From Candidatus Altimarinota bacterium (lineage in GTDB: Bacteria > Patescibacteriota > Gracilibacteria > BD1-5 > UBA6164), in assembly GCA_943356435.1 (NCBI GenBank), contig CALREY010000001.1, forward strand, positions 1 to 64,000: a stretch of DNA of 64,000 bases, given 5' to 3'. The position numbers and the translations under genes are program-made. Shown piece after piece: positions 987 to 63,641 of the stretch (its first letter is position 1; every line of letters begins with the position of its first letter). The notes under the pieces were generated by a model that did no database searches, was not told the DNA's origin, and was given only the letters and a program-made list of their open reading frames with translations.

Positions 987-1067
987 ATTTATAAAAATTT
1001 CTTAACTTATTCTTAAAAATAAGTATTATATTATAAGTTATAACTATTTATCAATTAATCAGACTAT

Positions 1068-2228
1068 ATGGACAATAAAAACAAAATAATAATAACAATC
1101 ACTACCCTAATGATATTTCTATCAATAATTTCTGGTGTAATATGAAGTATTATTTTTAATAAATATTTAAATAATCATAAAATAACAGAAGTAGCTACAA
1201 AAGAAACTAAAGTAGTAGAAAAAATCACTAACATAACAGACTTACAAAGTGAAATAACAAAAATAGTAAAAGATGTATCTCCATGAGTAGTAAGTATAGT
1301 AATAAAAAAAGATTTATTGGTATATAGAAATTCGCCATTTTGATTTTTCTCAAATCCTATATGAAGTGTAAATCAAAAAGTATGATGAGGAACATGATTT
1401 TTCATTACAAAAGACTGAAAAATAATTACAAACAAACATGTTATAAGCGACAGTCAAGCTACTTACACGGTTATAACTAATGATAATATAGAATATGATG
1501 CTAAAGTAATAGCAACTGATCCAAATAATGACTTAGCAATATTGGAAATAATAGACGATAAAAAAGAATTCAAAACTCTAGATTTCGTAAATAAAATAGA
1601 TGAAATAAATGTGTGACAATTTGCAATAGCTATGTGAAATGCATTATCAGAATTCCAAAATTCTGTTTCTCTATGAGTAATAAGCTGAAAAAATAGAAAT
1701 ATAAATGATTGAAATAATATGATTTCGTGATTAATTCAAACTGATGCTGCTATCAATCCAGGTAATAGCTGATGACCACTTATAAATCTAGATTGAAAAG
1801 TAATGTGAATAAATACAGCTATAATTCAATGAAGTGAATGACTATGATTTTCTATATGATTGACAAAAAACAAAATAGACTATATGTTAAAGTCTATTAG
1901 TAAATACTGAGTAATAAAAAAACCATATATTTGAATAAATTATATAGCAATAAATGAAGAGGTACAAAAACAAAATAATCTAAAAACTAATACTTGACTG
2001 TATGTAGTGAAACAAGAATGAAGTGTAGTGAATTGAAGTCCTGCAGATGCAGAATGAATAAAACCTGGAGATATAATTACAAAAATAGATTGAGTAAATA
2101 TATGAGCAAATTATGACTTGAATCAATTTATTCAGTGAAAAATACCTGGAGATATTATTAGACTTACAATTATTAGAGATTGAGAGGCAGCAGAAATAAA
2201 TATAGATATGATGTTATGAGAGGCATAA
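1068..2228 (+). CDS. htrA: HtrA/DegP-type serine protease with PDZ domain
   Basis: 386 residues. An N-terminal membrane anchor (residues 6-28, IIITITTLMIFLSIISG) is followed by a trypsin-like domain with the complete triad: His124 in TNKHVIS, Asp155 in DPNNDLAIL and Ser234 in NPGNSGGPL. One C-terminal PDZ domain follows (about 285-380, GIKPGDIITKIDG). Two of the active-site glycines are TGA codons, which is direct support for TGA=Gly. The length and single PDZ match the DegS/HtrA-like membrane-anchored family. It degrades or refolds damaged envelope proteins outside the membrane. It stands alone between divergent pilin genes and ends in a terminator hairpin. Confidence 0.96.
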
Positions 2229-2233
2229 AAAAA

Positions 2234-2257
2234 GAAGCAATTAATTGCTTCTTTTTT
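2234..2257. terminator. bidirectional terminator between htrA and a pilin gene
   Basis: GAAGCAATTAATTGCTTC stem (2234-2251) flanked by A-run and T-run, between convergent htrA and the 2259-3989 gene. Confidence 0.8.
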
Positions 2258-2258
2258 G

Positions 2259-3989
2259 TTAATTTTTTATACAACGCACACTATAACCATATGATCTTCA
2301 ATTTAATTCAGTAGTAGATATAAAATTATCTAAAAACCTTAATGTATAAGCATATAATCAACTATTTGTACTTGATCTATAATATCAAACTCCTGCTTGA
2401 TCATAATAATTTCAATTAGCTCAATGACGCCAACCAGCAGATGGTAATTTTAATTTACTTTTCATTGAATTTACAGTATTAACATTATCAGCACAACTTG
2501 TTCATGATATTAAATTACATGCAGATAACCATTCAGGTTGACTAGGTACATGCCATCATGATGAACATGGTCATTGTCTAGCTGAAGTATTTGTACCTGC
2601 AGGATTATCTGTAATATTTCACCATGCATCGTTATTTTGAGGTGCTTGCCAATCCCAATTAGATCAAAATCAAGTATTTAATGCATTAGTAAAAGTAGTA
2701 TCATTTTTTCACCATTGATAATAATCTCAAATCCATGTATTTCATAAATTACAATTATTAACTGTTCACGCACAATAAATTGGTGCAGTTGTTCAATCCC
2801 GTACTGTTGTTGCTCATAGATTTTTACATGACCATGTTTGTCAATTTGATAAAGTAATGCTTTCTAATCATGTAGTACATTCAGTAGCAGTTACACAAGC
2901 AGTTCAATTCCATCCTTGTCATGAAGTACAAGTAGTATTTCAACCACCTCAGCTACTACTACTTGAAACACTAGTAACAGCATTTACAATAATATCAGCT
3001 CAAAGAGTATTGTTTACGAAATTAGCTCCATAAGCTATTACTTCACTACTTGGTGAACTAGTATTTATTGTTAAAGCTACTATATTTTGTATTTCTCATA
3101 CACTTTGTACTAGAGTACCACTATATGAATTTTGTAATCATTGTAATAACTGTACTCTTGCTGTTGTTCATGAATTTGTTTTTGCAGTCAGTGCTTCACA
3201 GCTTCATGTATCTGTATATGCGATTAATTGACTTGTAGTGAAATCAAATCATCAGTCATGTTTGAATTTACTTTCTTTAAATGAACTTGGTAGATTCTTA
3301 TATCCATTATAAACAAGTCATTTATTTGTAACTATTTGTGATAAATCTGTTGTAGTAGTTACATCATTTGCTATTATTGTAGGTATTCATATCATTGAAC
3401 ACGTTGTTCATGATAATGATTTTGCCATTGTTCCATTATAATTTCATGTTGTATAGGCTTTTGCTTCTACTGTTCATGCATTTGCTTTGTTCTGCTCCTT
3501 CCCTAATTTTAGGGAAGGTTGGGATAGGTTAAGAGAAATAGTATCCCCTTCCAATAATCATGCTAATTCATATTCATTTTGTTTATTTATCACTGAATAT
3601 GTATACTCTTTATCTGTTAATGCATCTTTTGGTATTTTATCTAGTTTACTCAGATTTGCATATACTGTTTCTCAGAATGTTCATTGTTTCCATACTACTG
3701 ATCCACTATATGTTACTGATACTCAGTTTGTTGGTAATGGATACTTCCCTGCATCTAAGTTATACAATTCTAATGACGATCTCATCGTAGATATATCACT
3801 TATTCTAGTACTATCTCTAGCATCTGTACTATATCATTGTAAGCTTATGAATGATATTGTTCATAATATTGCTAATATAGTTATTACTACTATTAGTTCT
3901 ACCAATGTAAAGGCTTTATTAGTTTTTTTATTGTAGCCTTCCTCCCTAATATTAGGGAGGAAATTCAATGGTGGGTTAAGTTTGTGCAT
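2259..3989 (-). CDS. pilin-like protein with C-terminal FISUMP domain
   Basis: 576 residues. The prepilin signal is KKTNKA then FTLVELIVVITILAIL, so the residue before the cleavage site is Ala rather than the usual Gly. A pilin-like region follows to about residue 330, then a Ser/Gly linker at about 345-358. The Cys-rich C-terminal part (about 370-576) has GWHVPSQPEW, LKLPSAGWR and a terminal GYSVRCIKN, the signature of the Fibrobacter succinogenes major paralogous domain (TIGR02145/FISUMP). It is therefore probably a pilus-borne tip or surface-binding protein; that role is inference. The leader and the middle both contain palindrome-encoded segments. Its pilin part is colinear with the 5237-6121 protein apart from those insertions. 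Confidence 0.9.
3493..3533. repeat. palindromic element inside pilin coding sequence
   Basis: CCTTCCCTAATTTTAGGGAAGG (3497-3518) followed by TTGGGATAGGTTAAG. The equivalent lies at 376-420 in the first pilin. It encodes LSQPSLKLGKEQNKANA and is absent from the third pilin at the same alignment position. Confidence 0.75.
3936..3980. repeat. palindromic element inside the pilin leader
   Basis: Inverted repeat CCTCCCTAATATTAGGGAGG (3941-3960) with tail AATTCAATGGTGGGTTAAG. It encodes NFLPNIREEGYN in the leader peptide of the FISUMP pilin. Confidence 0.75.
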
Positions 3990-4043
3990 AATAATATAAT
4001 ATGAAAATATATAATTTTAAAACTATAAAATTATATAAGAAAA

Positions 4044-4080
4044 AAAGAAAATATAAATAATATTTATATTTTCTTTTTGA
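4044..4080 (-). terminator. terminator of pilT
   Basis: Long AT stem AAAGAAAATATAAATA / TATTTATATTTTCTTT downstream of the PilT stop. Confidence 0.65.
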
Positions 4081-4110
4081 CTTTTTTGTATTTTATTTAT
4101 TAATACTTTA

Positions 4111-5157
4111 TTATCCTTGATCTTTGAAGTAATTAATATAATCTGCTTCCTTTATCAATCATCTATCTCTCAATATTTCAGCATATTTTTGCATATGTAT
4201 CATTCAATAATTTGAACCTGTTTCTATATATGTAAACATTTGATTTATATTTCAGTTTCTTATCAAATTCTTTATTCAAGTATTTACTATCATTAATTCA
4301 AAGATTCATATTCTACCTCATCAGATTTTTGGAATAAGTCTTTGTGATAATACTCATTTTAATGATTCTGATAATTTTTCTCTCACTAATGGTTGAGATT
4401 CTATTGGGAAAAAACTAATCAATCTATTAACTGTTTGTATAGAACTAGAAGTATGTAGAGTAGATATAACTAAATGCCCTGTTTCAGCTAATTCTAATGC
4501 TGATTGTACTGTTTCTCTATCTCTCAGCTCTCATATCATAATAATATTTGGATCTTCTCTCAGTGACGATCTAAGTGCATCTCTAAAACTATTTGTATCT
4601 ATTCATACTTCTCTTTGTGAAAAAAGAGATTTCTTATCCTCAAATATAAATTCTACTGGATCCTCAATAGTAAGTATATGCTCTCATCTCTCACTATTTA
4701 TTTTTTCTAGAATTGAAACCATAGTTGTAGACTTACCTGCTCAAGTTGGTCAAGTAATCAAAACTAATCAACTTTTTAATTCAGTAAACAATTTAGTTGC
4801 AGGTGGTAATAATAATTCTTCCATTGTCATAACTTTGTTTGAAATTCTTCTCATAACAAAAGATATTTTTCATAGTCTAAAAAAGGCATTTACCCTAAAT
4901 GATACTCAATCAGTATGTACATAAGCGAAATCAAGCTCATGATTAATCAAAAACTTATTTATATTTTCTTTATTTGATTTCAATAATATTACAAGTATTT
5001 CTTTTATTTTTTGTAAATCAATAATTCAAAAAGAATCTACTATAGATAATACTCAATCTATTCTATAAGATATTTTATTAGTTTCAGAAATATGAATATC
5101 TGATGCATTATGTTTTATTGCATAATCAAATATTGATAATATAAAATCGTTATTCAT
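4111..5157 (-). CDS. pilT: PilT-type twitching motility ATPase
   Basis: 348 residues, the normal PilT size. An N-terminal PAS-like domain has SDIHI. Walker A GPTGAGKST is at about 136-144, followed by the Asp box TIEDPVEF, Walker B IIMIGELRDRET and the His box STLHTSS. The AIRNLIRE motif typical of PilT appears as VNTGIKNLIRNGNINQM. It powers pilus retraction at the cytoplasmic side of the inner membrane. It lies between two pilin genes on the same strand, but each gene has its own terminator, so a single operon is not obvious. Many Gly residues, including one in the Walker A motif, are TGA. Confidence 0.95.
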
Positions 5158-5208
5158 TTTTTATTAGATGTAAATAATATAAAAAATTATAACATATAAA
5201 ATTAAAAA

Positions 5209-5246
5209 AAACAAATAATCAAATCATAAAAATGAATTATTTGTTT
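5209..5246 (-). terminator. terminator overlapping the third pilin stop
   Basis: AAACAAATAAT ... ATTATTTGTTT inverted repeat that overlaps the last codons of the pilin at 5237-6121. Confidence 0.55.
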
Positions 5247-8633: not shown

Positions 8634-9959
8634 ATGACAAAAGATACATGATTTGATGCATTTTTCAGAGCAGTTACATCTTCTCCTGAATTCAAAACTG
8701 CAGCAGAAAAAGATTATATATGAGATTTCAAAAAATGATTGGATGAAATGGAGCAAAATTTAAAAAATGCATCTAAAATATCTGATACTTTTAATGATGC
8801 ATTTAATACTCCAGAAGCAATAGAAGCAGGAGAAAATTATTCTAGTTCTTATACTCCATATATAAATAAAACTGAAGAAACTGCAACTAAAGAAATAAAA
8901 CTAGATATACAATATTTTGAAAATAAAAATCCTGCTACATTTTGATTCAATTGAGTCGCATGAATGGCAGAATTAAAAGAAAATCTGAGAGAATGTTTTA
9001 TCAGACCACTTAAATTTAAATTTTTGGTACAAAAATTGGAAGAAGATAATTTATCCCCTCCCCCTTCGGGTACTCCCCTAGATAAGGGGAGAAATAAGGA
9101 TGATACAAAAAATTCAAAAAAAGATGCAAAAAATGAATTGTATAAACAAATAAATGATGCATATAAAAAATTCAATGTTAACATACCTACTTGATTACTT
9201 TTTTATGGTCCTCCAGGTACAGGTAAAACATTTATAACAAAAAAATTAGCAGAAGAATTATGAGCATGACTTATAAAAAAATCTGTATGAGAATTTGGTT
9301 CTAGTTATATTCACCAAACATCTAATAATATAAAAAGCTTTTTCAAACAAGCTAAAGAAGCAAGTGAAAAATGACCAATTATACTATTTTTGGATGAGAT
9401 TGATTCCCTACTATCTAAAAGAACTGATAATATAGATGCAAATAAAGCTGAAGAAGTTTCTCAATTTTTACAAGAATTTAATGCACTAGAAGAAGCTCCA
9501 AACTTGATAGTAATAGCTGCTACAAATAGACCAGATCACTTGGATAGTGCTATACTTAGATCATGAAGATTTGATAAAAAAGTATATATCTGAGCTCCTG
9601 ACTATATTGCTAGAAAAGAATTATTTCAAATAAATATAGAAAAAGTAAATAGACCACATAAAGAGCTAGATTATGATAAATTAGCAGAGTTAAGCGACTG
9701 ATATGTATCAGCAGATATAGAAGCTATATGTGATGAAGTATCTCGTGATGCAAGTAAATCTATACTAGATTTAGCAAATATGGTAGATAATGAAAATGCA
9801 AATTTTGACAAAATAAAAGAACAATTGGATGATAGTATAATAACTATGGAATTATTAGAACAAGCGATAAAAGAAACTACTTCATCTATAAAATATACAG
9901 ATATGTCTATATATGAGGATTGGTTAAAAGAAGAAAAAAAAGAAACAGTTAGAGTTTAA
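8634..9959 (+). CDS. AAA+ ATPase (FtsH/SpoVK-like module)
   Basis: 441 residues. An N-terminal region of about 90 residues is followed by an AAA core: Walker A GPPGTGKT (192-199), Walker B IILFLDEIDSLL, sensor 1 AATNRPDHLDSA, arginine finger and box VII region LRSGRFDKKVYIGAP, then the lid helical domain. There is no protease domain, so it is a remodelling ATPase, not FtsH. Residues about 140-157 (LSPPPSGTPLDKGRNKDD) are encoded by a palindromic repeat element and enlarge the stretch before Walker A. It is the last gene of the TelA operon and ends in a strong hairpin that overlaps its stop codon. Confidence 0.92.
9054..9099. repeat. palindromic element inside the AAA+ gene
   Basis: CCCCTCCCCCTTCGGGTACT then CCCCTAGATAAGGGGAGAAATAAGG. 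The same architecture as the intergenic copies at 31348 (CCCTCCCCCTGCGGGGACT then CCCTTTGGAAAAGGGAGAA) and 26616. It keeps the reading frame. Confidence 0.85.
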
Positions 9960-9978
9960 ACTCTAACTGTTTCTTTTT
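9937..9978. terminator. bidirectional terminator, TelA operon and C39-like gene
   Basis: Perfect palindrome centred at 9957/9958 (GAAACAGTTAGAGTTT and its complement) with flanking A-run and T-run; the stop codon of the AAA+ gene is within it. Confidence 0.85.
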
Positions 9979-10943
9979 TAATCATTTAATTTCTCATCTG
10001 TATCAAAAGCCATTTCATCAAATTTGTTATCCATTGTGTATAACAATTTAGATATCAATAGTGAAATATTTTCATCTTTATTATTGCTTTTCTTTCTCAG
10101 ATTTTGAGAAACTATTTTTAATATATTTTTTTTATTATTTGGATTTTTTTCTATTAATTCATCTAACCTATTCATAAATAATTTAGATTTTTCAGTGAAA
10201 TATATATCTTGAAAATCTAATTTATTTTGATTTAATTTTCATTCTAGTAACAATATTTTGTTTCAATTCTCTCTTATTCATTTTATAATTATACTATTTT
10301 CATACTTATAATTAGCTCATTTAGAAGTACCAGGATCAAAACTTACAATATTTATTTTATCATATCAAACCAAATCAATTACATGATAAGAATCAGTAGT
10401 TTGATTAAAATTTGGATTTCAAAGTGTAAGTGTATTAGAAGGTGCTATAACTATATAGTCATGTGCTATCAAATACCTAATTGTTTCTATACTTGGATTT
10501 TTTATTATATGACTAGTTTTATTATCATATCAATAAAATCAAATAGCCAATTCTTGCATTTTTTCTATACTTATATCCCTTAAATAAGTTATATTAGAAT
10601 TTTTATTATGCTTTTTGTCCTTGATTATTCACATTTTTAATTCCTCATAATTATTCATATTTTCGAATTCTCTGTCAGCAGAATTGAAATCAAAATAAAC
10701 ATTATTTGTATTTGCATTAGCAATAAAAAGTGCAGCTTCTTCACAGGATTCATTATTTTTATCCCAGTTTTCCTTGGTTTTCAAAGGAGCTTGAACCATA
10801 AATCTTAAATTATCTATATTGTAATAATTATAAAATTTATAGTTTCATATATTATTTCTTATTGTAATATCTTCAAACTCATATCAGTAACTATTATTAC
10901 ATATAAAAAACAATACAGTTAACAACAAAAATTTCTTTAACAT
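9978..10943 (-). CDS. secreted C39-like cysteine peptidase (copy A)
   Basis: 321 residues. A Sec signal peptide (MLKKFLLLTVLFFICNNSYG) is followed by QAPLKTKENWDKNNESCEEA, the catalytic-Cys region of the Peptidase_C39_2 fold, and later DSYHVIDLVGYD with the catalytic His and FDPGTSKG. The C-terminal about 90 residues are charged and helical (SQNLRKKSNNKDEN) without a known domain. It probably cleaves extracellular or periplasmic substrates; no substrate can be named. It is a paralogue of the next gene upstream (11215-12225). Confidence 0.82.
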
Positions 10944-37476: not shown

Positions 37477-37560
37477 ACATTTTGGGGATTTCCCATCGAT
37501 TGGAGTAGAAATACTCCATGATAATTATTAAAGATTTAAGAGTTTCTTAAGTCTTTTTTT
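37477..37560 (+). ncRNA. candidate small RNA antisense to the mazF 3' end
   Basis: From the predicted start after the promoter at 37442-37470, about 80 nt run to a 10-bp intrinsic terminator (AAGATTTAAG-AGTTT-CTTAAGTCTT plus seven T, 37531-37560). On the way are GGGGATTTCCC and GGAGTAGAAATACTCC stem-loops. No reading frame longer than 10 codons lies here. The last part is complementary to the last codons of mazF. The RNA may be a regulator of the toxin or an unrelated sRNA; only sequence signals support it. Confidence 0.5.
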
Positions 37561-37917
37561 AATTTTATTGAAATCTGTTTCATCTATTTCTCACATCTTT
37601 CTTTGAAATCTTGCATTATCAAACATTCTAATTTGATATAATAATGCAGTAAAATCTTCTCAACTTTGCTTATAGTTAGCATACCATGTTCAATATTTTA
37701 TTTTAGAACTGAGTGGAATTCAAATAAAAGTTTTAGAAGATAATTTTTTTAAAATTAATACTGGTCTTCTAAAATTATCTCATTTTCAACAAGATTCTTG
37801 TTTTATATTTAATCACAATGAAACCCACCATATTTGTCATTCATTAAAATAAATATCACTATTAATTGTTTCAATTTCTTTTTTATATTCATTCCACTTA
37901 TCAAAATCTTTCTCCAT
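37528..37917 (-). CDS. MazF/PemK-family toxin, no antitoxin beside it
   Basis: 129 residues. GQIWWVSLGLNIKQESCGKG, then FRRPVLILKKLSSKTFIGIP and LYQIRMFDNARFQRKMGEID match the PemK/MazF fold, an endoribonuclease that cuts mRNA. Neither neighbour encodes an obvious MazE-like antitoxin: upstream is an intergenic repeat, downstream is the Dam gene 160 nt away. A candidate antisense RNA overlaps its 3' end. Confidence 0.88.
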
Positions 37918-38005
37918 ATTCACATTTTAAATTCTAAATATTTTTATATATACTCAATATATACATAAAATCAAATTTAAATAAATATTTTAAAATATAT
38001 TATAT

Positions 38006-38090: not shown

Positions 38091-41000
38091 TTATTTCAAT
38101 TTCGAAATCTCTTTTGATAATCATAGTTTCAAATAACCAAATATTCTAGTTATTTTTTTATTATTTTTATGAGATTCTATTATTTTTTCATTTTTTAAAT
38201 ATAGATTGTATAGTGCTTGAGATTTGTTTTCTGGGTCTTTTATAGATGCTACTCTTTTAACTACTTTGTTTATCATAGTTTTATAATTACTAGAAACATC
38301 TGTATAATTTACTTCCCTTTGCAAATCTGAAATCATTTCTTCTATATATTTTGCTTTTATTATCCATCTACCAGCAGTTCCTCAGATAGGTGTACAAGTA
38401 AATAGTGTCAGATTTTTACCAAATCATGGTTTCAAAACTGAAGTATCATTATTAGGAGTATTGTATGATTCTGTTACTATATATCTATATCTCATATACT
38501 CACCATTTGAGTTTTTTTCATATATCCATACTTCCTCATTTTTATCTAGTTCTATTATTTTTTGAAAATGTGTTTTGTATCTACCATCATCATCATTCCA
38601 ATAAGAACTATGTCAAAATACTACTTTGTTTCACAATTCACCATATCATTTATCACTTGTACCTGGGTATTCTACTACTCAAGTTTTTAGATAATTATTT
38701 ACATTTATTTCCCTACCATTTATCATACTTTCGAAATCCTTACTATTCTCAGTAACAGTATTTATAGGAACTACCAATCAATTACTTGGTACTACTATAT
38801 ATTTAGAAGCATTTTTATCAGCATCTATTAATACTTGTTTCCAATAGTCTAGCTCAGTATTAGTACTTCATGCTAATCTGAAACTTGATTCATCAGGTAG
38901 TGATGTATTTACTTTGCTATTTGATTTTGTAGTTACTCTTGAAGCTATTGGTGTACCAGTTTTTGGTAGTACACTAGGTAAAGCTTTCAATAATGAATTA
39001 CCTACCAAATCATCACTTTTTAATAACTCATTTAATAATTTTTGTTTCTCTTCATATTGAGTCATGAACTCTTTTACTGGAGATTTATCGAAATTTGTTA
39101 TTTTATTTTGTGGTTTTTCTTCTTCAGGAATATTTTGTTTTTCCTTTGTTTCTTTTACTGGAGTTTCTTTGATGATTTTTTTATTATCTGCTATATCACA
39201 AGATTTTCATAAATCACCTCACTCACAGCTTACATTGTCAGCTCTATACCATATGTAGTTACCTGCTGCATTCTTCTTGCATATTAGATCTGCAGGAGTA
39301 CATTTAGGTATTACTGTTGTACTAGAACCTCACATACCTCATTTTACTGGTACACTCACAATTATTAATTCATTACTTACTGTTTGAGAACTTATTCATT
39401 CTTCTATAGTTCATGTAATAGTTGTTTTTACTTTACTTCAAACTACTCATACTGCTTTAGATTTAAATGAGAAATGTTCAGTCACATCTGGTCATATAGT
39501 TATGATTGTAAATGTGATTTTTCAAATAGTATCATCTATTACTATAGACCCTGTATCTACCAAACTACCAGTATCGAAATCTAGACTTCCAGATTCATAA
39601 GTCACTGTTCAAGTATTGTATAATAATTCTACTTGCAAGTTTGTACCTGTAGATGTTCCAGTATTTTTAATACTTGAAGTATGAGTGATATATTCATTTA
39701 CATATAGACTTCATCCATTGTCATCAGTTTCGAGAGATGTAGTAGATAGATTTGGTGCTACTACTGTGAAGCTCACATTTGGGCTTCCTCATATAGCTCA
39801 TTCTACTGTATCTCATACTACTGCTATTGTATTTATATTTGTTCATCCAGGAGTCAATCTGTTTGTCATTATTTTGTATACAATAGTTTTTGATTGTCAT
39901 ATTGCTATATTTACAGCTGTAACTGATAATTGTCAGTTGTTATATGTTCATCCAGTAGAAGTATAATTACTAGATGATCAACCAGGAATAGTTTGTAATA
40001 TAAATGTAGAACCAGATAAATAATTCGGAATATCAATAGTAACAGGAATATTAGTCAATGCTACATTTCAAGTATTAGTTAATGTAACTGTATAAGTATA
40101 ATATTCTTCTGATAAATGGCTTCCAGAATTATCATCTACTACTGATATACTTTCATCCAAAATTGCATCTTGATATGTAAATGATGTATTATCTATTGAT
40201 TTATAATCATTTATTCATCCATTACCATTTCTCTCTGTATTATTAGTATTTCATACTAATACTTGAGAATAAGTACCTGTTTGAGAAGTATAAATCAGAT
40301 CTCATGTCAGAGTTAGTATATCTCCCAAGTTTTGACTACCATTTACTTTTGCAAATATTTCAAATGTAAGTGGATTTCCAGTATTTACTGGTAATCTATC
40401 TACATAAAAAGTGTTTCCAGTTTTTGATAGATTTACTGCTCATCAAGTATTAGTAATATTTAATGCTCAAGTATAACTTACTCCAGAAGGTAAAAATGTA
40501 GCTAAATCTAAATCAAATCAATCAGTTGTTCCAGTATTAGTTAGAGAAAATGTATATTTTACTTGTGATGTTTCATGAGTAAATACATTAGTTATATCTA
40601 GATTTATACTTGGTTCTTTTATAGTGATAGGCAGAGTTTGAGCTGTTTTTTGACTACTGCTATTATAGTTTGCTATTACATTGTGTATTTTTGTTACTCA
40701 GTCATTATTTATAGAAGTATTGAATACAACAGTATCAAAATCTATATATAAATATTCTGTTACATTATTATCTACATCTGAATTTACTAAATCACTTAGA
40801 TTCCATAACATTCATGTAGAAGTGAATGTTGGTTGTTCTGCTCCAGAGAATACTACTCATGTACTTGTAGTAATATTTATAGAACCAGTATCTACACCTA
40901 CTCAAGATGGTAATAAATCTTGTATTTCTAGTGAATTAGTTGTTCATTCTGCTATAGGGATTCTAATAGTATAGCTTGATACATCTCATATTTTTACTTG

Positions 41001-44000
41001 GTCAGAAGTATTTAGAATAGCTGCTATTCATCATGCTACTATTACTTGTAAACTATCTGTAGATGATACAGTTGGATATGCTCTTTCATAAGAATTTGAT
41101 CCTGAAGCAGAAGTGTAATCCACTGATGCTGTTCAAGTAATTATTTGTCATGCTGTAACAGTATTTTTTAGTATAGAATTGTATGAATATGTGATAGTAT
41201 CTCATATATTTAACACTGATGTACCACTAGAAGTATAATAATTTACTCAAGTAGATGTCAAATAACTAGATTGATAATCATTCCATACTACATCATAAGC
41301 AGGAGCTGTTCAGTTATTAGTTATTGTGATAGTAGTAAGTGCTGTATCTCAAGCATCTCAATTGTTTATATCATAAGTTTTAGATATTGTTAGATTTGGT
41401 TCTACTATATCTAGATTTGTAGTTGTACTTACACTATGAGTTGTTTGCCAAGTACCTGTTGCAGTAGACAATCATTTTTGTTGTCCAGATGTCAAAAGTA
41501 CATTGTCTATAACTACAAGTTCAGAATAAACATCTATAGTTTTTACACCATTTGTTCATGGATTTGAGATATCTCATAAAGTATATGTAATAGTATTATC
41601 AGGACTTATAACTATTCAAGATAAACTATGACTTACAACAGATGCTCAAATACTACCAGATAGAAATTTGTATCCTGCAGGAAGACTTTGTTTGATAGTT
41701 AATCAAGTGAAAGTAGACTCAGGAATAGTCAATGTAGTTTTATAAGTAGCTTGTTCTCATATATGTAAATCATATAATGATAAGTTAAATTTACCTGTTC
41801 AAGTATTAGAGTCATCAGTACTAGTCAAAGTATGAGTGATAGCTAGATTGTTAACAGTGAAATTTACAGTTGAGCTACCAGTATAAGTTTTTTCATATAC
41901 TGAATTATTAGCATCAAGTGAGCTATATGATATATTTGCAGTATTTGGTATTACTAGAGATGGAGTTATATCATCATTTACTAATGCTTGAAAAGTAATA
42001 CTTTTTGTTCCAGAAATATTTAATTGTCCTAATGTTACACCACTTCATGACAAGAAATCAGACTCAGATCATGTAAATCAATTGAGTACTAGACTACCAG
42101 TAACGAAAGTGAAATGAGAATTCAGAGTATCAGTAAGAGCTAAATCATAAGCATTCGCATTACCATTATTTGTTAACGATATTGTATAATTAATTGTATC
42201 ACCAGCATCTCAAGTAGTAGGAGTAACAGATTTGTTTACTAATATATTTGGTTGTGTAACTGATACATTTTTAGTTGCTGCTTTATTAGTAGCATTGTAA
42301 TTGAATGTTCATGTAGTTACTTTTGAACCATTTGTAGCACCAGTTTTAGTTTTATATGTAGTATAAATAACTATTGTTTCTATACCTGTTCAAGTATCAG
42401 AATTATTAATTGTTCAAAAATTTACTGTATTTCATGTAAATGTTGTACCAGTAGAAAAACTCAGACTTCCACTATATCATACAACTGTTCCAGTCAAAAA
42501 TTGTAAATTTGCATTTGCAGTATCTACAAAAGTAGAATTATTATATCTACCTCCTGGAAGTGTGATAATATTTTCATATACTGAATCTTCTCATATTTCT
42601 AGATTTGTAGTAGTACTTCATGACTCAGTAGTGGACAATAGATTTCTAACTAATGTAGGTTGTTTAGTAGTAAAACTAGAACTAGAAGTAAGTGGTCAGA
42701 AATTGTTTACTCAGTTTGCAGGAGCATCCTTACTAGAATAATAATTAAGAGTTACTGTATTTACTTTAGTTAAACTATTGATTAATATTCCAGTTCATAC
42801 ATTTACAGAATAATTGATTGTTACACTTGTATGTTTTGGTAATATTGATCTACCAAGTGTTGCTCAAGTGTTGAATTCGATGTTCAAAATATTTCCAGAT
42901 TGAGTCACAGCTTGGTTTGCTAAACTGAATCATGAACCAGCCATACTGAAACTTTGAAGTGTTAAATCACTAGGTAAAGTATCTATTATATCATCTACAT
43001 ATGCAGCTGCTTCTCAAGTATTGTTTAATACTATTTTGTAGTCTACATTACTACCTGCTTCTATATTTGTACCTGACATAGTTTTAGTCAATGTTACAGC
43101 TGGTAATGCAATATCAAACGGTACTTCAAAAATATCTAGATTACTAATTGATCATACATCATTTTTGAAATGTGCTATAGACACATTTTTTTCTGGTAAA
43201 AATCATTCATTGTTATAGCCACTTGGTTTAGCTGGTAATATATCTACTGAAAATATAACTGAAAATGTTTTTGCAGTATTTCATTCTCATAAATCGAAAT
43301 CTATATTATTAGCAGGAGAAGTAGATATCCAAGAACTATTTGGCATTGTAGTTCATGATAGAGTTAATCAATTGAAATTTGTATCTGCATTTCAATCATC
43401 ATTATTATCATTTATTGGAACTAGATTATTATTTATATCTCTAAGTGTTGGATTAGTTTGAAACGCTATATCATATACACTATTATTTGGTCATGTTAAT
43501 AATGGTAAAGCATCTCTCACAAATGCTCAAGTAGACAATACATTTGGAAAATCCATTACTAGTCAAAATGTCAACTTAGAACCTACTGGTAATTTTGTAT
43601 TTGCTGGTAGTGGATTTGCGTGATTATATATAGTTGTATCTGGTAATTCTATAGAGATTAATCTTTTTTCATTAGTTGGACTAGGTGCTTTTATACTTGA
43701 TGATGCAGTATAAGTAACTGAAGAATCAATTATACTATTATCAGTATATCACCATTCTGCATTATTTGTACTATCTGAAATAGTTCAAAAAAATGTAGCA
43801 GTATTAGTTAGAGTTTCTGTATTTTCATAGTTTTGCTCACCTGGTCATTCAAAAACACCATCAACAGTAGCATCATAAGTAATAGTTAAATGGTCATCTG
43901 ACTTTACTTCTCATGAATTCAGTCTCCACAAAATAGTTGTATCACCATTTGCATCTACACTATTTGATATATATGTTAGAGGACTTCATATTCCAGTATT

Positions 44001-45275
44001 TAGACTAGAAACAGTTCCTGAAAATGTAAGTCAATCAGGTAATTTATCACTTATATATGTACCAGAAGCAGATGTAGAAAATGCTACATTTTTAGCAACA
44101 TCTAGTCATATAGTATATCTCACAGATTCTCAGATAACTGGAGAAGATTTATTTACAGATTTAGATAATTCTGCATATCATAGTTTTTGATCATGAGTTT
44201 TTTCTCATACTACAGTTCAAGTATTTATAGCTATATTTGTAGTACCATCATTCCAAGTTCAATCTATTTGTTGATTTACTCTATTAACTGAACTAGTTCT
44301 ATCAAGTATTACTGAACCTGTATCTAGTAAAATAGTTCATCCTGTATAAGCATTTATAGGAAATGCTAGAGCAAGTGTTTTATAAGAAATATTTACGTTT
44401 GAGTTCATAGGTACAGTAATACCTGATAAATCTAGAGTTACTTCTCAAGGGTTTGGAGTATCATAACTTACAGAAATACTTCCTACTCATCCAGTAGCAG
44501 TAAATCATACAAATTTTCTATTATTTGGTATTACATCTACTACATGTATATTATTCAATTGTCATAAACTATTTCCATGAACAGTAATAGTATTAGAATA
44601 CTCATTACCTATTAATCACAATCAAGCTCAAGATTTAGATATATCATAAGGTATGAAGCTTGTTACAGCATTAGCGTATGTTAATGTTGAATAATTTGCA
44701 GCAGTAATATTATTAGGAAATGTTAAATCACTAGGATCTGTAACAGAATTTGATACATCTACTCATCCAGGAAGTGTTCAACCTGGTGCTCATATAGGCA
44801 CCGCTCATCTACCATAGATATTATCATTAGCATATCATAATACTTTTATATTATAATTTGTGAATAATGAAGCACTATTTGCTGATTTAAGTGTAACACT
44901 ATATGATTTACTACTTCACTTAGTTAAAAAATCTTGTGTCTGAAAAAAGTATAATATTCAACCAGTATATGATACATTTCTAACAGGAGTTCAAAGCCCT
45001 CCATTTCATGAAATAAATGTAATTCAAGTAGGTACATTTAAAATAAATCAATTTTTAAATGCATCTCACTCTGAACTATTATTATTAGTTAATGTAAAAT
45101 TGTAATTGAAATTACTTCATATAATAGCACCTGATGATACACTAGGTGTAACAGTCAGATTTAGATTAGCAGTTCCGTCAATATCCACTGCATAAGTAGT
45201 TCCAATATTATTTAAAGGAATCAAATTAAAAACAAGTAAAAAAAGAAACAATTTAGCTAATGATTTTTTAAGCAT
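38091..45275 (-). CDS. giant surface protein with LPKTG motif and sortase domain
   Basis: 2394 residues, open throughout with TGA=Gly. A Sec signal peptide (MLKKSLAKLFLFLLVFNLIP) starts it; the ATG at 45326 upstream would break this. The body consists of many DUF11-like beta modules (GDTINYTISLTNNGNANA, GDTALTTITITNNGTAPA). A charged linker (KETPVKETKEKQNIPEEE) precedes LPKTG at residues 2103-2107. A sortase fold then follows, with His2222 in VVFGHSSYW, Cys2294 in LTLFTCTP and Arg2303 in GTAGRW. There is no C-terminal hydrophobic anchor. The product is a long adhesin that carries both a sorting signal and its enzyme on one chain, probably outside the membrane. It is likely the cell's largest surface adhesin. 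Start chosen by the signal peptide. Confidence 0.88.
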
Positions 45276-45462
45276 AATAATTGTTAAAAAGTAAAGGTTT
45301 ACTATGTAAATATAAGAGAAAATCACGCAAAAAAAAATTTATTTTTAAATTAAAATAGACATAAAATATATTTAACTTATAATAATAATTTAAATATGAT
45401 ATATTTGCATTATTTACATTAAAGTGCTAAAATTATTTAAATATAATTATTATCTAAAAAAT

Positions 45463-47490
45463 ATGAAAATCTGAATAAAAACATCACTAGTAATAATTTT
45501 AATCATCGCAGCTGCAACTGGGTATTATTTTTGGGACAAAGATAAAAAAGCTAAATTGGCAAAAGAAGAAGCTGCAAAAATGGAATACTCTGTAAAAATA
45601 TGAGATATAAAAACTGAAGTAAAAGTAACAGGTATAGCAAAACTAGCCAATGAACAAAATCTTTCATTCTGATTGGAATGAAAGATTACAAAAGTGTCTG
45701 TAAAAGTATGAGATGAAGTAAAAGCAGGACAAATATTAGCAGAACTAAATATGGATGATTATCAAAATGCTATTGATAGTGCAAAACTAGAACTAGAAAA
45801 TGCTAAAATATGATTAACTAAACTATTGAACAATGATACTTCCCTAAGAGAAGCTCAAATCAAATCACAAATAAATGAAATAAATTCAAATCATAGAGTA
45901 GAAATAGAACAAAAAAATATTCTTAGAAACCAACTAGAAACAGCAATAGCTCAAAAAAGAGATAGTTTAACACAATTAAAAAGAGATTTCGAAACAGAGA
46001 AAAAAAATCTAGAAATAGCTAAATCAGGTGTAAATGTAACTACAAATGTAGAAACAAAACAAACAGAAAGTAGATTAATAGCTCGTAAACAATCTATAGA
46101 ATCTATAAATAATTCACTTAACTCATGATTATGAGACATAGAACAAATAGTAGAATCAGTAGACAAAATATATGGAGTAAGTAATGAATTCAAATATGAA
46201 AATGACTCATTTGAAAATTATTTATGAGCAAAAGACAGCTGACTAAAAAGCAAAACAGAAGCTTATATTTTGGACTGATACAATCTAATAAAAAAATATA
46301 AAGAACAATTTAAAAATCTAAATAATGAAATAAGTGATGAAGAAATAAAAAATATAGTACAAAATTATTATATTGATACAAAAGTGTTAGTAGATATGTG
46401 TGATACTGCTATGAATTCTCTAGATAAATCTATAGAATCAGTTTGAAGCTTATCAAAAACAAATATAGAATGATACAAAGCAACTGTAAATGCTTCTAGA
46501 GCAAGTGCAGTATCTATTAGAAAACAATTAGAATGATTTTCTGCATCTATAAATGCATTTAGTTCTGATATTGACCAAAAAGACCAACTAAATATATCTA
46601 TAGAACAAAAAAACTTAGATATAGATAAAAAAGTAGCATCATTAAAAAAATTGATGGAACAAATAGATTTATTAACAAAAGAAATAGACGACCAAGAAAT
46701 AGATAATCAAAATCAATTGAATAGAAAAATCACTCAAAATGATACTATGCTAGAAAAAATAGATGTATTGAATAAAGAGTTACAAGATTTGAGAGATGGA
46801 GCTGATCAAAATGATATAAGACAGCAACAAAATATGATAAAACAAGCTGAACTAAAAATAGATAGAACAAACGAACAAAAAGATAATTACCAAATCATAG
46901 CAGATTTTGATGGAAGAGTTCGTAGTATAGACATAGTAGAATGAGAACAATACAAATTAACAGATAAAAAATACATAGTAGTAGAAAATCCAAATCTAAT
47001 AGAGTTAGAGCTTCAAGTAAGCCAAATAGATATAGTAAATATAAGAGAAAAAAATACTGCAGTAGTTACTTTTGATGCATATCCTAATAAAGCTATAAAC
47101 ACTTATATAAGTAATAGAAGTGTAAATCCTGAAGCAAATGGTAGATGATGATTTTATTACAAAGCTACTATAGTTTTAAACAAACAAGAACTAGAAATAC
47201 TTGCATGAATGACAGCTGTAGTAAACATACTTACTCAAAAAGCAGAAAGTGTTACATTAATCCCTTCTCTATCTATCATACAAGAATGAGAAAAAAAATA
47301 TGTATACAAAAAATCTGAAAATCAAGAATACAAAAAACATGAAATAAAAACTTGAATAGTAAACAATTTTCAAGCAGAAGTATTAGAATGATTGAAACCA
47401 GGAGATATAATAAAAGTGTCATGATTGGATGATGAAACTCTTAAAAATATGTGAATAGATGAAAAAAGTGGAAGTATTTTTTGAGGATAA
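45463..47490 (+). CDS. HlyD/MacA-like membrane fusion protein
   Basis: 675 residues, about 300 more than MacA. One N-terminal membrane helix (KTSLVIILIIAAATGYYFW). The biotinyl-lipoyl half-motifs are KITKVSVKVGDEVKAGQILA and, near residue 480, YQIIADFDGRVRSIDIVEGE. Between them lies an unusually long coiled coil (about 110-450). A beta-barrel follows with VVTFDAYPNKAI and LAGMTAVVNILT. It links an ABC exporter to the outside; the long coiled coil would reach further from the membrane than in MacA. First gene of the operon with the ABC genes. Confidence 0.9.
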
Positions 47491-47513
47491 TAAAATAAAT
47501 CTAAACTAAAAAA

Positions 47514-48182
47514 ATGATAGAAATAAATAAATTAACAAAGTCATACATTATTTGATGAGTATCAAGTATGATTTTGAAATGAATTGATCTAAAAATAGAA
47601 GATTGAGATTTTGTAGCTGTTATGTGACCATCATGATCTGGTAAATCTACACTTATGAATATGATTTGAATATTAGATATTCCTAGTACTTGAGAATATA
47701 TATTTCAATGAACAAATGTAGCAAATTTTACTGAAGATGAACAAGCTATTTTTCGTAGAGACAAAATCTGATTTATATTTCAATGATACAATTTATTAGC
47801 CAAATTACCTGCTCGGGAACAAGTCGCACTACCTTTGGCTTACAAGTGATGGTCAAATAGTAAAAGACAAGAGAGAGCTATTGAAGTATTAAAAGAAGTA
47901 TGATTATGAGATAAAATAAATCACACTCCTGATATGCTATCTGGATGACAACAACAAAGAGTCTGTATAGCTAGAGCTCTAGTTTGCGACCCAGCATTAC
48001 TTTTAGCTGATGAACCTACATGAGCATTGGATAGCGTAACAAGCACTGAAGTGTTAAAAATATTCACCGATTTAAATAAAAAAGGTAAAACAATTATAAT
48101 GATTACTCACGATGCAGAAGTAGCTGCATATGCGAAAAGAATAGTACGTATAAAGGATGGATTAATTAATAATGAAATATAA
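47514..48182 (+). CDS. ABC transporter ATPase (MacB/LolD type)
   Basis: 222 residues. Walker A MGPSGSGKST, Q-loop GFIFQGYNLL, signature LSGGQQQRVCIARAL, Walker B LLLADEPTGALD and H-loop MITHD. All fits the LolD/MacB subgroup. It powers the exporter made of the flanking genes. Walker A and the signature contain TGA-Gly. Confidence 0.97.
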
Positions 48183-48184
48183 CA

Positions 48185-49399
48185 ATGTCATTTTTTCAAC
48201 AAATAATACAAGCTTGGAGAAACCTTCGTTCTAGAAAGATGAGGTCTTTTTTGAGTATATTATGACTTGTAATATGAGTATTTTCTGTTACCGTTATGGT
48301 ATCTGTTTGAGAATGATTACAAAAAAATATATTATGAGAATTCGAAGACTCTACAACAAATACTATTACAATAATAGCATGAAAATCATTTAATCCATTT
48401 GAAACTCAGAGAAATGCAGAAATACCTTGATTTACAGAATCAGATATTGCATTCTTCAAAAACTCGATGTGATTTATAAAAAAAGTTACACCTATGGCAG
48501 AATTAACAGAAGATGTAATAATAAAGTGAGAAAAAGTAACTGATACACGTACAATTGCAGGTAGTAAAGAATATATGGATATAGAATGATTTGATTTACT
48601 TGCATGAAGAGAGTTAAATCAAGACGATTTAGATAATTATAAAAATGTACTGATAATAAGTGAGAATGTAGTAACTGATTATTTAAAAGGTACAAACGAA
48701 GAAGCAATTTGAAAAGAAATATTAATATGAGATCAATATTTCACAATAGTATGAGTTATAGAAAGTAGAGGTGGATGAATAATAGATGTGAAGGTATTAA
48801 TAGTACCAATTACAACAGCTCAGAAAAAAATAACAGCAAATCCATTTTATCCATTCTTGGTATTTGAAATAGATGAAAGTATAGCAAATAGTGAAGCTGT
48901 AAAAATGGCTAAATATACATTATTAAAGTGGCAATGAGCCAGTCATATGGATGATGCATTATTTCAAGTAATTTCTACTGAGACACTAGTAGAACAAATA
49001 TCAAATGTTACGAATATGCTACAATTAGCATTATTATGAATATGAGCAATATCATTACTTGTTTGAGGTATATGAGTAATGAATATAATGCTTGTATCTG
49101 TTACAGAAAGAACAAGAGAAATATGAATCAGAAAAGCTATATGAGCTAGATATTCAGATATATTATTACAGTTTTTGACTGAGTCAGTTATGTTATGATT
49201 ACTCTGATGTATAGTATGAGTACTATTAAGTCGGTTAGCTATCTTGTGACTACAAAAATTAGATGTACCAGCATTATTAAATCTAAAAACAATATTAATA
49301 GCAGTAATATTTTCATGATGAACATGAGTAATATTCTGAGTATGACCTGCTAGAAAAGCTGCAAAAATGAAACCTATTGATGCTCTAAGATTTGAATAA
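48185..49399 (+). CDS. MacB/FtsX-type ABC permease
   Basis: 404 residues, starting 2 nt after the ATPase. RKMRSFLSILGLVIGVFSVT is the N-terminal helix; a periplasmic domain of about 200 residues follows, then three helices near the C-terminus with [20 protein letters not shown] and IRKAIGARYSDI. This is the MacB-FtsX superfamily. Together with the fusion protein it forms a mechanotransmission exporter, probably for peptides or lipoproteins. The substrate is unknown. Confidence 0.95.
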
Positions 49400-58486: not shown

Positions 58487-58519
58487 AAAAATACTCTAAA
58501 AATTTAGAGTATTTTAATT
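58487..58519 (-). terminator. terminator of the PKD protein gene
   Basis: AAATACTCTAAA / TTTAGAGTATTT stem overlapping the stop codon, with T-run. Confidence 0.8.
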
Positions 58520-61500
58520 ATTTAGAAGTATTTCAATCATTATTATCTCAAGAAGTTTGAAGCCAATCAGGAATTTTCATTCAATCATCCCATAATTCAC
58601 TTGCTACATCTTTTTCATTATTTGTAGTTGTAATATTTTTATCATCTTCTTGTTTTGTTTGTTTTTTTACTACTACTTCTTTTGTTTTATTTTTTTTATG
58701 AGTAGTTTTTTCTTCTTTTTTTTCTTCTTTCTTTACTTCCTTTTTTTCTTCCACTTTTGGAGTTTCCATTTTTGGAGTTTCCATTTTAATTTCTTCTTTT
58801 TTAGTTTCTTTTACTACTTCATCACTAAAACTTCATTTTAACCAATCTGGTATATTATCATCTTGTTTTTTTGAAGTTTCTTCTACTTTTTTCACTTCAT
58901 CAAAACTTCATTTCAACCAATCTGGTATATTATCAGTTTCGATTTTAGTTACTTCTTCTAAATTTTCAGATTTTGCTTCTTGTTTTACTACTTCAGTTTT
59001 TACTTCTGCTTTTGGCTCAGTTTTAACTTCTTCTGTAAAACTTCATTTTAACCAATCTGGTACGTTTTCAGTTTTTGTTTCTTGTTTTACTTCTTCTTTC
59101 TTAACTTCTACTTTTGGCTCTTCTTTTTTTATTTCTGCTTTAGCTTCAGTTTTTACTTCTTCTGTAAAACTTCATTTTAACCAATCTGGTACATCTTCAG
59201 TTTTTGTTTCTTGTTTTACTTCTTCTTTCTTAACTTCTGCTTTAGCTTCAGTTTTTACTTCTTCTGTAAAACTTCCTTTCAACCAATCAGGAACATTTTC
59301 AGTTTTAGTTTCTTGTTTCACTTCCACTGCTTTTTCCTCTACTTTTACTTCTTCTTTTTTGATTTCAGGTTTTGATTCAGTTTTTACTTCTTCTGTAAAA
59401 CTTCATTTCAACCAAGAAGGTACATCTTCATTTTTTGTTTCTTGTTTCACTTCCACTATTTTTTCTTCTACTTTTACTTCTTCTTTTTTGATTTCTTCTT
59501 TTTTAATATCATTTAATATATCAGCGAATCAATCATCTTTTACTTCAGTTTTTGTTTTTTTAACTCCTGATGTTTTTTCAATGATAAAATCTTGAAATCA
59601 TATATTTTTATCCTTATTTACGATTATATAATAAATAAAATAAATAAGTACTATTAATCAAAATCATATAAATATGTAGAATAACCATTTAAGTATATTT
59701 ATGAATAAATCCATAAAATTACTTGTAGAAGTATTTGTATTTTCTACTGCTGTAGTTGTAGTTTCAGTTTTTGGAATATTTGCTACTCAACCATATACAA
59801 GAGTTTTTAATATAGCTTTGAAATCAGTTTTTTGTTTTGCTGTCATTACTTTATCATCAGCTATAGCTTTTAATATTTCAGTTCATAAAACTTTGTTTTC
59901 ATCTATATTATCATTATTTTTAATAGTTTCTAATTTAGCTACTAAATCTGCGTAACAATTAGCTTCTTTTCCAGTTTTAGCATCTTTACAAACTATAGTT
60001 TGAGGAATCAAGTTTTTTAATGCAGTAAATGCAATTGATTTTTCACTTTTATCTGCTTGATCATCTACTAATAATGATTCTAATAAATTGATTATATCAT
60101 CAGATTTTTCTATTTTTGATTCTTCTATATATCATTCAAATTCTAAAATTACATTTGTTTTTTCTCTATTATCAAACCAATTTTCTTGCAATTTTTGTAC
60201 ATACATCATTGCTTTCAATTTGTTTTCTTTAGGTAAATTACCTACATATTCTTTTAATTTTTCTATTTTTAATTTGATAGATGTAGATACTCATTTGAAA
60301 ACAATATTTTTTAAGTCTATATTTGATGCTTCTATATATGTTTTTATAATTGTTACATCTTTAGTAGCAATAATCTCATTTTTAGCATTTTTTATATATA
60401 CTCTTATTTTTTGAGTTTTATTTTCATTTAATGATACATTTATAATAGAACCAGATGTATATGAATTAAAATTTGAATTATCTTCATCATCATCACTTGT
60501 TCCATTTAGGTCTGAATCATTTTCAATATCATTATCAATAACATAATTAGTTATTTCTCAATTACTTTCTCATAAATAAATAAATACGCTATCACCATTT
60601 TTTTCTAATATTATTTCATTTTTATCATTTACTGATGGTGAAGAAAACATTACTAATCAATTTTTTCTTGCTACAACAGTATTTTTTAGATTTTTTGTTA
60701 CTTTTTGACTTATATCTTTTACTTTAGTTCAATCAGTAATTTTTAAATTTACTATATGTGATACTTTGTTATCTTTATATTCATGAGTGAAATTACTACT
60801 ATTTTTTATAATAGTACCATCACCTAAATTCCATTCTGATGAATCAGTAGTTCATCTACTTTTATCAAAAAATACAAATTTATTTCAAATAGAAATATAT
60901 CAGAAATCTGGACTTAATACATTTGATACATCAACAGTAACACTTTTTGTATTACTAAATCATTTATATTTTACTTTTACTTTTGCATGTTTTTCTCCTG
61001 AAGATATATATTTATAAGAAGTTTTTCATGTAGTTGTTTCTTTATCATAAAATCCATCTCAATCAAAATCCCAAGAATAAGTTGCCTTATTTGTTATATC
61101 TTGACCTAATATATTTTCTACTTCTGCTATGAAATTGATTTCATCTCAGATTGATACTGATGAGTCATCTACTGATAATTTTACTAGTGGAGTATTTAAA
61201 TTATCTCAAGTAAGAGTAACAAAATACTTAGCACCTGTTATTTCTTCAGAAGTTATTCTATCTTCATTGTTATCTTTCATTACTACTACAAAGTAATAAT
61301 TTCAAGTTACTTTTGGTAATACAAAACTAGTACTTGATAATTTTGTAGCTCTATATTCTTGTGGTTCAGAATCTACATCTGTATAATAATACCATAGATA
61401 TGATTGAATAACTCAATCTCTATCTTTTGCTCATAGTGCAGATACATTTACTACTACTGGATCAGTTTTATCATCTACTACTTTCACATCAACTGATGAT

Positions 61501-63641
61501 AAAGTAGGTTTCAAATTTCTAACATCTACATTTATAGTTGTACTATGTGTTTTTCAATTTGCATCACTTTTAACAGTTAATTTAACTGGGAAACATCCTA
61601 ATTCATCGAATTTTTTAGTAAACTCAGCAGAATTTTTGAAATCCTCATTTCATACTTTCCATGAATAAGTTAATCCTGTATTTTTACCTGTAATATCAAT
61701 ACTTTCATTTCCAGAAAATAATACACTATCAACTCTATTAACTATATATGCTCATCATACACAAGCTTCATCATCAAATGCAATATTATTTTTTGATGAA
61801 TCAGTTATATTAATAAATGAATATGGAGCATCAGAATCTCATACATATACACTTTTTGTATAAGTATTTGTATTATCATTAGCATCAATTACTTTTAATT
61901 TTACATTGAAAACTCAACTTTTATCATAAGAATGTGATATATTTCATTCATTTCATCAAATAGTACTTCCATCTCAGAAATCCCATTCAAAAAATTTAGC
62001 TGCAGGAGATTCAGTTACAAATCTAACTTTACTAGTTCTTTGTGCTACTCTAGGAAATATAAAGAAATCAACAGAAAGTAGTGATTTGATTTGTACTTTG
62101 TCTTTCTTTTGTGAAATAATACTATCTGGATCTTCTACATCCAATGCTACTGAATGATCTCAAATAGAATCAAAAGTATAATAACCTGTCGATCAATTAT
62201 AATTTGGTTCTTCTAATTCTACTCTTTCTCCATCTATTACCCAAGAAAATTTCAATTTTCAATCATCAGACACATCTGGATCATAACTTTTAGATGCATC
62301 TAAAAATACTCTATTTGGTTTGTTTGTTTGAGGTATTGTACTAATGAAATTAGCTACTGGTGATCTAGAATTAATATATATTATTCTAGAATCAGTATCC
62401 ATTTGACCTGATGGTTCAGTTACATTCATTTTTACATTATATTTTCATTTTTCATTAAATATGTATGTAAACAATGTACCTGCTTTTCTAAATATTACAG
62501 AATCTTTAGCTAAATCTATTATTTCCCATGAATAACTTAGATTTTTATCATTTCCAGAATTTTGAGCTGAAAATGTGAATTTATCTCACATAAATCAATC
62601 TTCTGAATTTGTTTTGATTGTTGCAATTGGATTATGTATACTTATGATAAATTTTTTCTCTACTTTTTTTAATTCATTTGTTTGTAAAGTAAGTGTTACT
62701 GGAAAATCTCATTCTCTAGCATATATTACTCTCTCTACTTTTGGATATCATACATTTTCTCTTACTACACCATTTCAGAAATCCCAAGTTGTTTTTGCAA
62801 ATTTTGCTCATGATGTAGGTGTTGAGCTAGTAGCATCAAATAATAATCAATATCTAGCATCATCAGGAGTAAATTTGATTACTTCACTATTTTGTAAATC
62901 TACTCAATTTACTTTTAATATAATTGAAGCAATTTTTTCTTTTACTACTACATCAGCTCTAGAAGAAAATGGTAATACATCTGTATATCATGCTTCGTTT
63001 TTATGAGCAGAAGATACATCTAAAAATACTGAGAAAGTTCATTCTTCTCTGAAAACATGTGAAATAGATAATCAATTACCTAATACTACTTTTCTACCAT
63101 TTTCATACATCCACCATGTATAATTATATGTTGGAATTTTTGTTCCTGTTGGATCTACTATATTACTTCATCTCAAAGTCACTGTTAAAGGTGCATTACC
63201 TGTACTAGGAAACGATTCTACTTTTCATTTTATTGATTGAATAGATGTTTTATCCAAGAAGTTTTCTATTGCTACTTCTATTGCTCAATAATTAGAAGTG
63301 TTATTTGGATATAATATTCCTCTATCAATTGCAGTTTTTAAATAATTGTAATAATTTTTGTTACTTAAAGTATCAGGTAAATAGTTATACCCTTGTTTTG
63401 CGTAAGTTAAAATTTGTTTAGCAGAATTTACATCAATCTTACCATCCAATTCATATTTATTTCTAAAAATAAAGAATGAATCAGTCATTTTATACCTAAA
63501 TTCATTGAATGTACCTTTATCAACCTGTCTTAATTGTGTATAGACAGGTTCTTCATTTGCAGCGTATGTAAAACTGCTATTGTAGGCAATAGCAAGGGAA
63601 ATAAGCAGGAATATAAGTTTTACTCTTTTAAACATAATCAT
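58518..63641 (-). CDS. PKD-repeat membrane protein with repetitive cytosolic tail
   Basis: 1707 residues. A signal peptide (MIMFKRVKLIFLLISLAIAY) is followed by about ten PKD-like beta modules (KTTWDFGNGVVREN, FEWDFGDGSTIGGN, YSWDFDGDGFYDKE). A helical stalk comes next, then one membrane segment at about 1312-1345. The cytosolic tail of 360 residues is rich in Lys and Glu and has seven copies of a (V/I)PDWLKGSFTEEV-like motif, the last degenerate (IPDWLQTSG). In six full copies the motif Gly is TGA five times and GGA once (59274-59276). Tails of this sort look like docking strings. A second start two codons downstream (MFKRVK) is possible. Confidence 0.87.

Follow-up and report, generated by a model that had tools for sequence, protein, structure and literature searches.

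A giant adhesin with an LPKTG motif and a sortase in the same chain: a likely self-processing natural fusion in Gracilibacteria

Introduction

Sortases and their substrates are usually regarded as separate partners. An ordinary LPXTG protein has a hydrophobic tail, which keeps the motif near the membrane where the sortase can reach it. Gracilibacteria and Absconditabacteria are tiny and probably host-dependent bacteria that are thought to live on other bacteria, and their genetic code is code 25, in which TGA encodes glycine.

The closest described systems are engineered. STEPL (sortase-tag expressed protein ligation; Warden-Rothman 2013) uses a protein-LPETG-SrtA fusion which, according to the account given of it in PMC11561820, cleaves itself and transfers the protein. 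The autocyclases are also engineered fusions, and both intramolecular and intermolecular paths have been shown for them (PMC9985607). The protein described here displays the same order of parts in one chain, i.e. substrate, LPXTG, linker and sortase. In STEPL and the autocyclases the sortase cuts its own chain and hands the protein to an amine, and by analogy the present protein would do the same. However the engineered fusions were made from SrtA, whereas this protein is natural and secreted, has a sortase of another clade and carries a giant adhesin as its cargo.

The sortase domain has its best structural and profile matches among sortases of class C (pilin type) and class D (LPxTA type), with which it shares the fold, the His-Cys-Arg triad and the TCTP signature. 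Those sortases are separate proteins, typically with a transmembrane (TM) segment of their own, whereas the present domain falls below every curated NCBIfam class cut-off (class D, C and E models, E-values 6.5e-7 to 1e-3) and has a helical bundle at its C-terminal end. The LPXTG cell-wall sorting signal (TIGR01167/PF00746) is likewise found behind extracellular repeats, but it continues with a hydrophobic segment and a basic tail; here a sortase domain is found instead. Dedicated sortase-substrate gene pairs, e.g. a class GN sortase with an LPGTG protein, place the enzyme beside the substrate, as do the split loci L165 and L167 described below. AbpA and SrtB are a dedicated substrate and sortase encoded side by side (PMC4974636). 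Such pairs consist of two polypeptides, whereas substrate and enzyme are one polypeptide in the present case.

The original prediction for this locus knew of no described example of the layout. For natural proteins this holds as far as open-access full texts were searched, in which no natural sortase-substrate fusion was found, but it does not hold for engineered proteins, as protein-LPETG-SrtA fusions exist. One Gracilibacterium paper names a sortase in passing only, and another attributes host attachment to pili and VCBS proteins. Sortase systems as such are already known; the present protein is best read as a self-contained natural counterpart of the STEPL and autocyclase fusions.

The gene and its product

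The DNA analyzed, termed the window, is a stretch of 64,000 nt. The fusion gene starts at ATG, and its frame is open only when TGA is read as a sense codon (Table 1). Code 25 is preferred over table 4 because the glycine of the sortase signature FGHSSY is encoded by TGA; table 4 gives FWHSSY at the same spot. A plus-strand reading of the interval, as well as translation with tables 11 and 4, were discarded.

Table 1. Features of the fusion gene and its product, with nucleotide positions in the window
Feature	Position	Strand	Basis or remark
Adhesin-LPKTG-sortase gene, 2394 aa, code 25	38091..45275	-	120 in-frame TGA codons as Gly; relatives
Signal peptide, residues about 1-30 (MLKKSLAKLFLFLLVFNLIPLNNIGTTYA, then VD after the cut)	45186..45275	-	Top hydrophobic stretch of the protein; cut site placed by eye
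Repeat region, residues about 31-1985, DUF11-type extracellular repeats	39321..45185	-	PF01345, TIGR01451
Helix ahead of the motif, residues 2066-2086	39018..39080	-	AlphaFold2 model, H26-46
LPKTG sorting motif, residues 2103-2107; extended P-x-x-L-P-x-T-G from Pro2100	38955..38969	-	
Linker, residues 2108-2157, begins TPIASR	38805..38954	-	Homologous to the N-terminal end of mature unfused sortases; low pLDDT at start
Sortase barrel, residues 2158-2311	38343..38804	-	NCBIfam, AlphaFold2, fold search, profile match
His2222 codon	38610..38612	-	FGHSSY; profile alignment
Cys2294 codon, nucleophile	38394..38396	-	TLFTCTP; profile alignment
Arg2303 codon	38367..38369	-	GTAGRW; profile alignment
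C-terminal helical bundle, residues 2313-2392	38100..38339	-	Common to unfused sortases and the sortase-less relative L052

The original prediction described a single chain that contains both an LPKTG motif and a sortase domain, and this is confirmed, as are the residue positions it gave for the motif and the catalytic triad. Its observation that the hydrophobic tail is missing is also borne out. The 287 aa that follow LPKTG contain neither a hydrophobic segment nor a basic tail, and over the last 150 aa the 19-residue Kyte-Doolittle mean never exceeds 0.72, compared with maxima of 1.93 and 2.39 in the tails of two ordinary LPXTG proteins from this genome. A signal peptide is present as judged by hydropathy and inspection, and there is no second stretch that resembles a membrane span. 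The repeats match PF01345 in seven stretches (E-value = 3.1e-32) and TIGR01451 (1.5e-23). The LPxTG pattern occurs once in the chain, where 0.08 occurrences are expected from composition.

The sortase domain

Pfam PF04203 does not detect the window protein. Three fused relatives are over its cut-off (L038, 3e-11; L042, 6e-15; L067, 6e-10), and in these the sortase is in one open reading frame with SdrD_B, DUF7507 or cadherin-like repeats. A family profile made from 23 relatives matches solved class C and class A sortases with a best E-value of 3.5e-13. The catalytic His, Cys (TLxTC) and Arg are invariant in the family and line up with those of the solved sortases.

The AlphaFold2 model of residues 2041–2394 has a pLDDT of 83.9 and a pTM of 0.74, with a value of about 90 in the barrel; one helix precedes the motif, and the C-terminal end forms a helical bundle. 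In a fold comparison with the PDB, class C sortases rank first (2xwg, 2.3e-10; prob 1.00), followed by SrtA and SrtE. Neither of the two conditions that would have refuted the original prediction, a buried motif or an unassembled active site, is seen: the model has a complete active site, and the motif lies outside of any folded domain. LPKTG and the ten residues that follow it are modelled with low confidence and without secondary structure (pLDDT 63 for model positions 61–70 and 45 for positions 71–80).

Fused and unfused relatives

Relatives were sought with the last 314 residues in 48 genomes of the same family, and a class-wide search added more. The family search gave about 18 close relatives with 34%–58% identity; most of the 48 genomes also hold a distant TM-anchored sortase. 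Among the genomes, those with names are Candidatus Gracilibacteria, Absconditabacterales and Peribacteria. Altogether 20 fusions of the same layout are found in several families of the class, with lengths of up to 3451 aa, some of them ended by contig edges. Their cargoes vary and include DUF11, SdrD_B, cadherin-like and Ser/Gly-rich repeats. The genome of the window has a second fusion (C12), a 983-aa frame with LLKTGTP. Outside the class, a search of 380 genomes of the phylum gave no fusion of this clade with E ≤ 1e-30.

All 20 fusions have an LPXTG-like motif (L[PLA]x[TS]G) at 43–66 residues upstream of the sortase core, i.e. LPKTG, LPRTG, LPQTG, LPETG, LLKTG, LAQTG, LARTG or LPQSG, although the conservation of the L, T and G columns is in part a product of the search pattern. 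A proline at position -3 of the motif (18/18) and the TPI that follows the glycine are also conserved, and neither was built into the pattern. In contrast, none of the unfused relatives (about 25, with chain lengths of 280–430 aa) has LPXTG at that place.

One of the 20, L160, is counted as fused with reserve, as its frame seems to be shifted relative to an upstream 876-aa open reading frame, and its motif (LPQTGIP) was added to the set by hand. The frame change in L160 (positions 1487–5214) is between the 876-aa adhesin frame and a 559-aa sortase frame and is either real or an assembly error.

Several candidate motifs were rejected. ILVSG in L168 is false and falls within a signal peptide. 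LPNTGVSISRK in the genome of the window (L152) is in a 35-aa frame and was judged a chance match. The extended P-x-x-L-P-x-T-G was dropped as a system-specific signature because ordinary anchors share it and the counts of the family pattern are near those of the control.

The seam between adhesin and sortase

When the fusions are aligned with secreted unfused sortases, the glycine of LPXTG falls, with no gap, on the residue that directly follows the signal peptide of the unfused sortases. The fused L048, G-TPLSERGIATIYN...TPPTW, and the unfused L170, A-LTPISQKGVPID...TPPTW, align without a gap as far as the conserved TPPTW. Fused and unfused paralogues from one genome match likewise, i.e. L162, GTPIDLLKNKGV...LTEQYDWI, and L163, AATPVEELAKVGV...LTEQYDWI. 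Unfused secreted relatives display LTPKxEKGV, LTPISQKGV or ATPVEELAKVGV directly behind the signal peptide, and in the fusions the equivalent segment is directly behind the T of the motif, LPxT-GTPISxR. Inheritance from the mature N-terminus of unfused sortases accounts for the conserved TPIxxR behind the motif. A cut between T and G would therefore yield a sortase with an ordinary mature N-terminus and glycine as its first residue.

Phylogeny and split forms

In a maximum-likelihood tree of the sortase core these sequences form a clade apart from the TM-anchored housekeeping sortases (support 100/100). The best tree has seven changes between the fused and unfused states, of which at least four fall on branches with strong support. 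Across independent pairs the motif always goes with the fusion and never against it; the four strongly supported pairs are too few for p<0.05. This repeated joining and splitting offers natural controls for telling substrate residues from enzyme residues.

Another family of the class, f5, has adhesins of 2561 aa (with DUF11 repeats) and 1636 aa in which LPETG is found 30–31 aa from the C-terminal end with no TM tail. The tail-less LPETG adhesin genes of L165 and L167 are followed by small genes, which encode membrane proteins in L165, and then by two secreted sortases of the clade. Partial or variant split forms are present in L164, L168 and L171.

L036 (positions 722–2289) is a TM-anchored sortase inside the fused clade (support 100/97) with a degenerate motif, IPQTR. 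Directly upstream is the gene for a secreted Ser/Gly-rich protein with NSIPTKIPTTGVSISR-stop / SIPTKIPTTGVSISR-stop (IPTTGVSISR-stop) as its C-terminal end. To judge from these sequences, L036 is a natural fission of a fusion in which the motif is kept solely by the substrate half and is dead in the enzyme half. Both the motif and the sortase are absent from L052 of the same genus (positions 8860–10584), which keeps the C-terminal helices and a helix resembling the one before the motif. The C-terminal bundle may serve a separate function. An assembly error is possible at the L052 locus.

In L174 and L176 divergent sortases adjoin secreted proteins of about 340 aa, which have LPSTGSEKVTYRRNELNK or LPSTGGPETTYRWVELNK at the C-terminal end.

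The two secreted sortases behind tail-less LPETG adhesin genes stand in tandem (L165, positions 833–4501; L167, 994–4300; L171, 994–4693; also L164, L166 and L168). The sequence around the catalytic cysteine is FGCTHG in the first and FACTEG in the second. Two membrane-protein genes are located between adhesin and sortases in L165, and none of the four small L165 gene products matches an NCBIfam family. These loci are possibly pilus-like assembly clusters.

Proposed mechanism and alternatives

That motif and sortase act as one functional unit, as originally predicted, is well supported by the presence of the motif in every fusion, its absence from the unfused relatives, its retention by the adhesin in split and broken-apart forms and its position at the seam. 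The joint loss of motif and sortase in L052, the fold and triad, the flexible motif region, and the self-cleavage and transfer seen with engineered fusions of this layout point the same way. In our judgement these comparisons make it very probable that the motif is functionally paired with the sortase of this clade. It is also probable, again as a judgement, that the fused sortase itself processes the motif. The window protein is read as a sortase substrate that is naturally fused to its own dedicated sortase and processes itself, and this reading as a whole is considered likely.

The chain would be exported by Sec through its signal peptide. The C-terminal sortase would then take the LPKTG of its own chain (in cis, over the flexible linker) or that of a neighbour (in trans), and cis cleavage over a linker of 45–50 residues is sterically plausible; engineered fusions with this order of parts cut in cis and act in trans as well. 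Cys2294 would attack between Thr2106 and Gly2107, and the adhesin would be held as a thioester until an amine in the envelope of the bacterium itself accepts it, either on a stem peptide of peptidoglycan or on another surface protein. What is released would be a mature soluble enzyme, G-TPIASR..., made up of the sortase and its helical tail. In this way the fused sortase would replace the membrane-spanning tail, keeping the motif beside an enzyme. Attachment to the bacterium's own envelope is judged to have a slightly less than even chance, and the acceptor may be its own peptidoglycan, another adhesin (giving a polymer) or a host surface. Fusions with LLKTG, LAQTG, LARTG or LPQSG count against self-processing, as do L040 and L046, which are unfused sortases inside the fused clade and have no visible substrate beside them.

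The main alternative is that the housekeeping sortase cuts LPKTG, and that the fused sortase serves other substrates and merely stands in the place of the tail. It is the main one because the genome of the window encodes one housekeeping sortase, bound to the membrane by a TM segment (G000:C6), and two ordinary LPXTG-TM-Lys proteins, a 232-aa frame with LPQTGPGEFMM... at C2 (G000:C2:81502, L141) and a 237-aa frame with LPATGPETIII... at C9 (G000:C9:24703, L155). The motif context P-x-x-L-P-x-T-G is also alike, e.g. PKKLPQTG in a standard protein. However chains that have lost the sortase or are no longer fused to it (L036, L159, L052) also lack the motif, which in the fusions falls exactly on the sortase seam, and the split relatives have adjacent sortases of this clade and not a TM tail. 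Cleavage by the housekeeping sortase is thus considered unlikely.

The two ordinary LPXTG proteins were found by inspection with code 25. A TIGR01167 search had given ordinary LPXTG anchors in two of the 48 genomes and none in the genome of the window, which is an undercount as the proteins at C2 and C9 were missed, and the earlier view that ordinary LPXTG proteins are lacking was dropped. Glycines recoded as TGA may explain these misses, in which case genomes with code 25 may hold more LPXTG proteins than are counted.

A further reading, which we regard as decidedly unlikely, is that the fusion acts off the cell, where the repeats would dock on a host or prey bacterium and the sortase would bond the adhesin to amines on the host surface or to further copies of the adhesin. 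If true, this would provide a covalent epibiont-host tether or a polymer, with free sortase released at contact.

The best structural matches, class C sortases, have an N-terminal lid, and LPKTG could similarly be a pseudosubstrate that lies in the groove and keeps the enzyme off without being cleaved. In the profile alignment, however, the lid of 2xwg (ILDPWLES) aligns downstream of LPxTG, opposite TLPxxxxFRLAG. Nearly every fusion has an intact scissile T-G, with S-G in a single case, and separate adhesins keep it at their C-terminal end as well, where there is no need for a lid. A pseudosubstrate role is accordingly very unlikely.

Hydrolysis alone, by which the adhesin would be shed or the fusion would export a soluble sortase on a carrier, agrees with the lack of a membrane anchor on either product and with the cleaved-type signal peptides of the secreted unfused relatives, but it is highly improbable, as characterised sortases are transpeptidases, the cargoes are surface-type repeats and shedding needs no LPXTG enzyme.

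With self-processing as the favored reading, nature appears to have built a self-ligating fusion that protein engineers also built. It would be a possible and testable way for Gracilibacteria and Absconditabacteria to fix giant adhesins without a membrane-spanning tail, and the family represents new sortases for single-chain protein ligation.

Neighborhood of the gene

A PemK/MazF-like toxin gene is located just downstream of the fusion gene (37528–37923, minus strand). Divergent from the fusion gene, at 45424–49399 of the plus strand, are genes for a MacA-like adaptor of unusual length (688 aa), an ABC ATPase and a MacB permease. A second giant surface-type protein, of 1707 aa and with PKD repeats, is encoded nearby at 58518–63641 of the minus strand.
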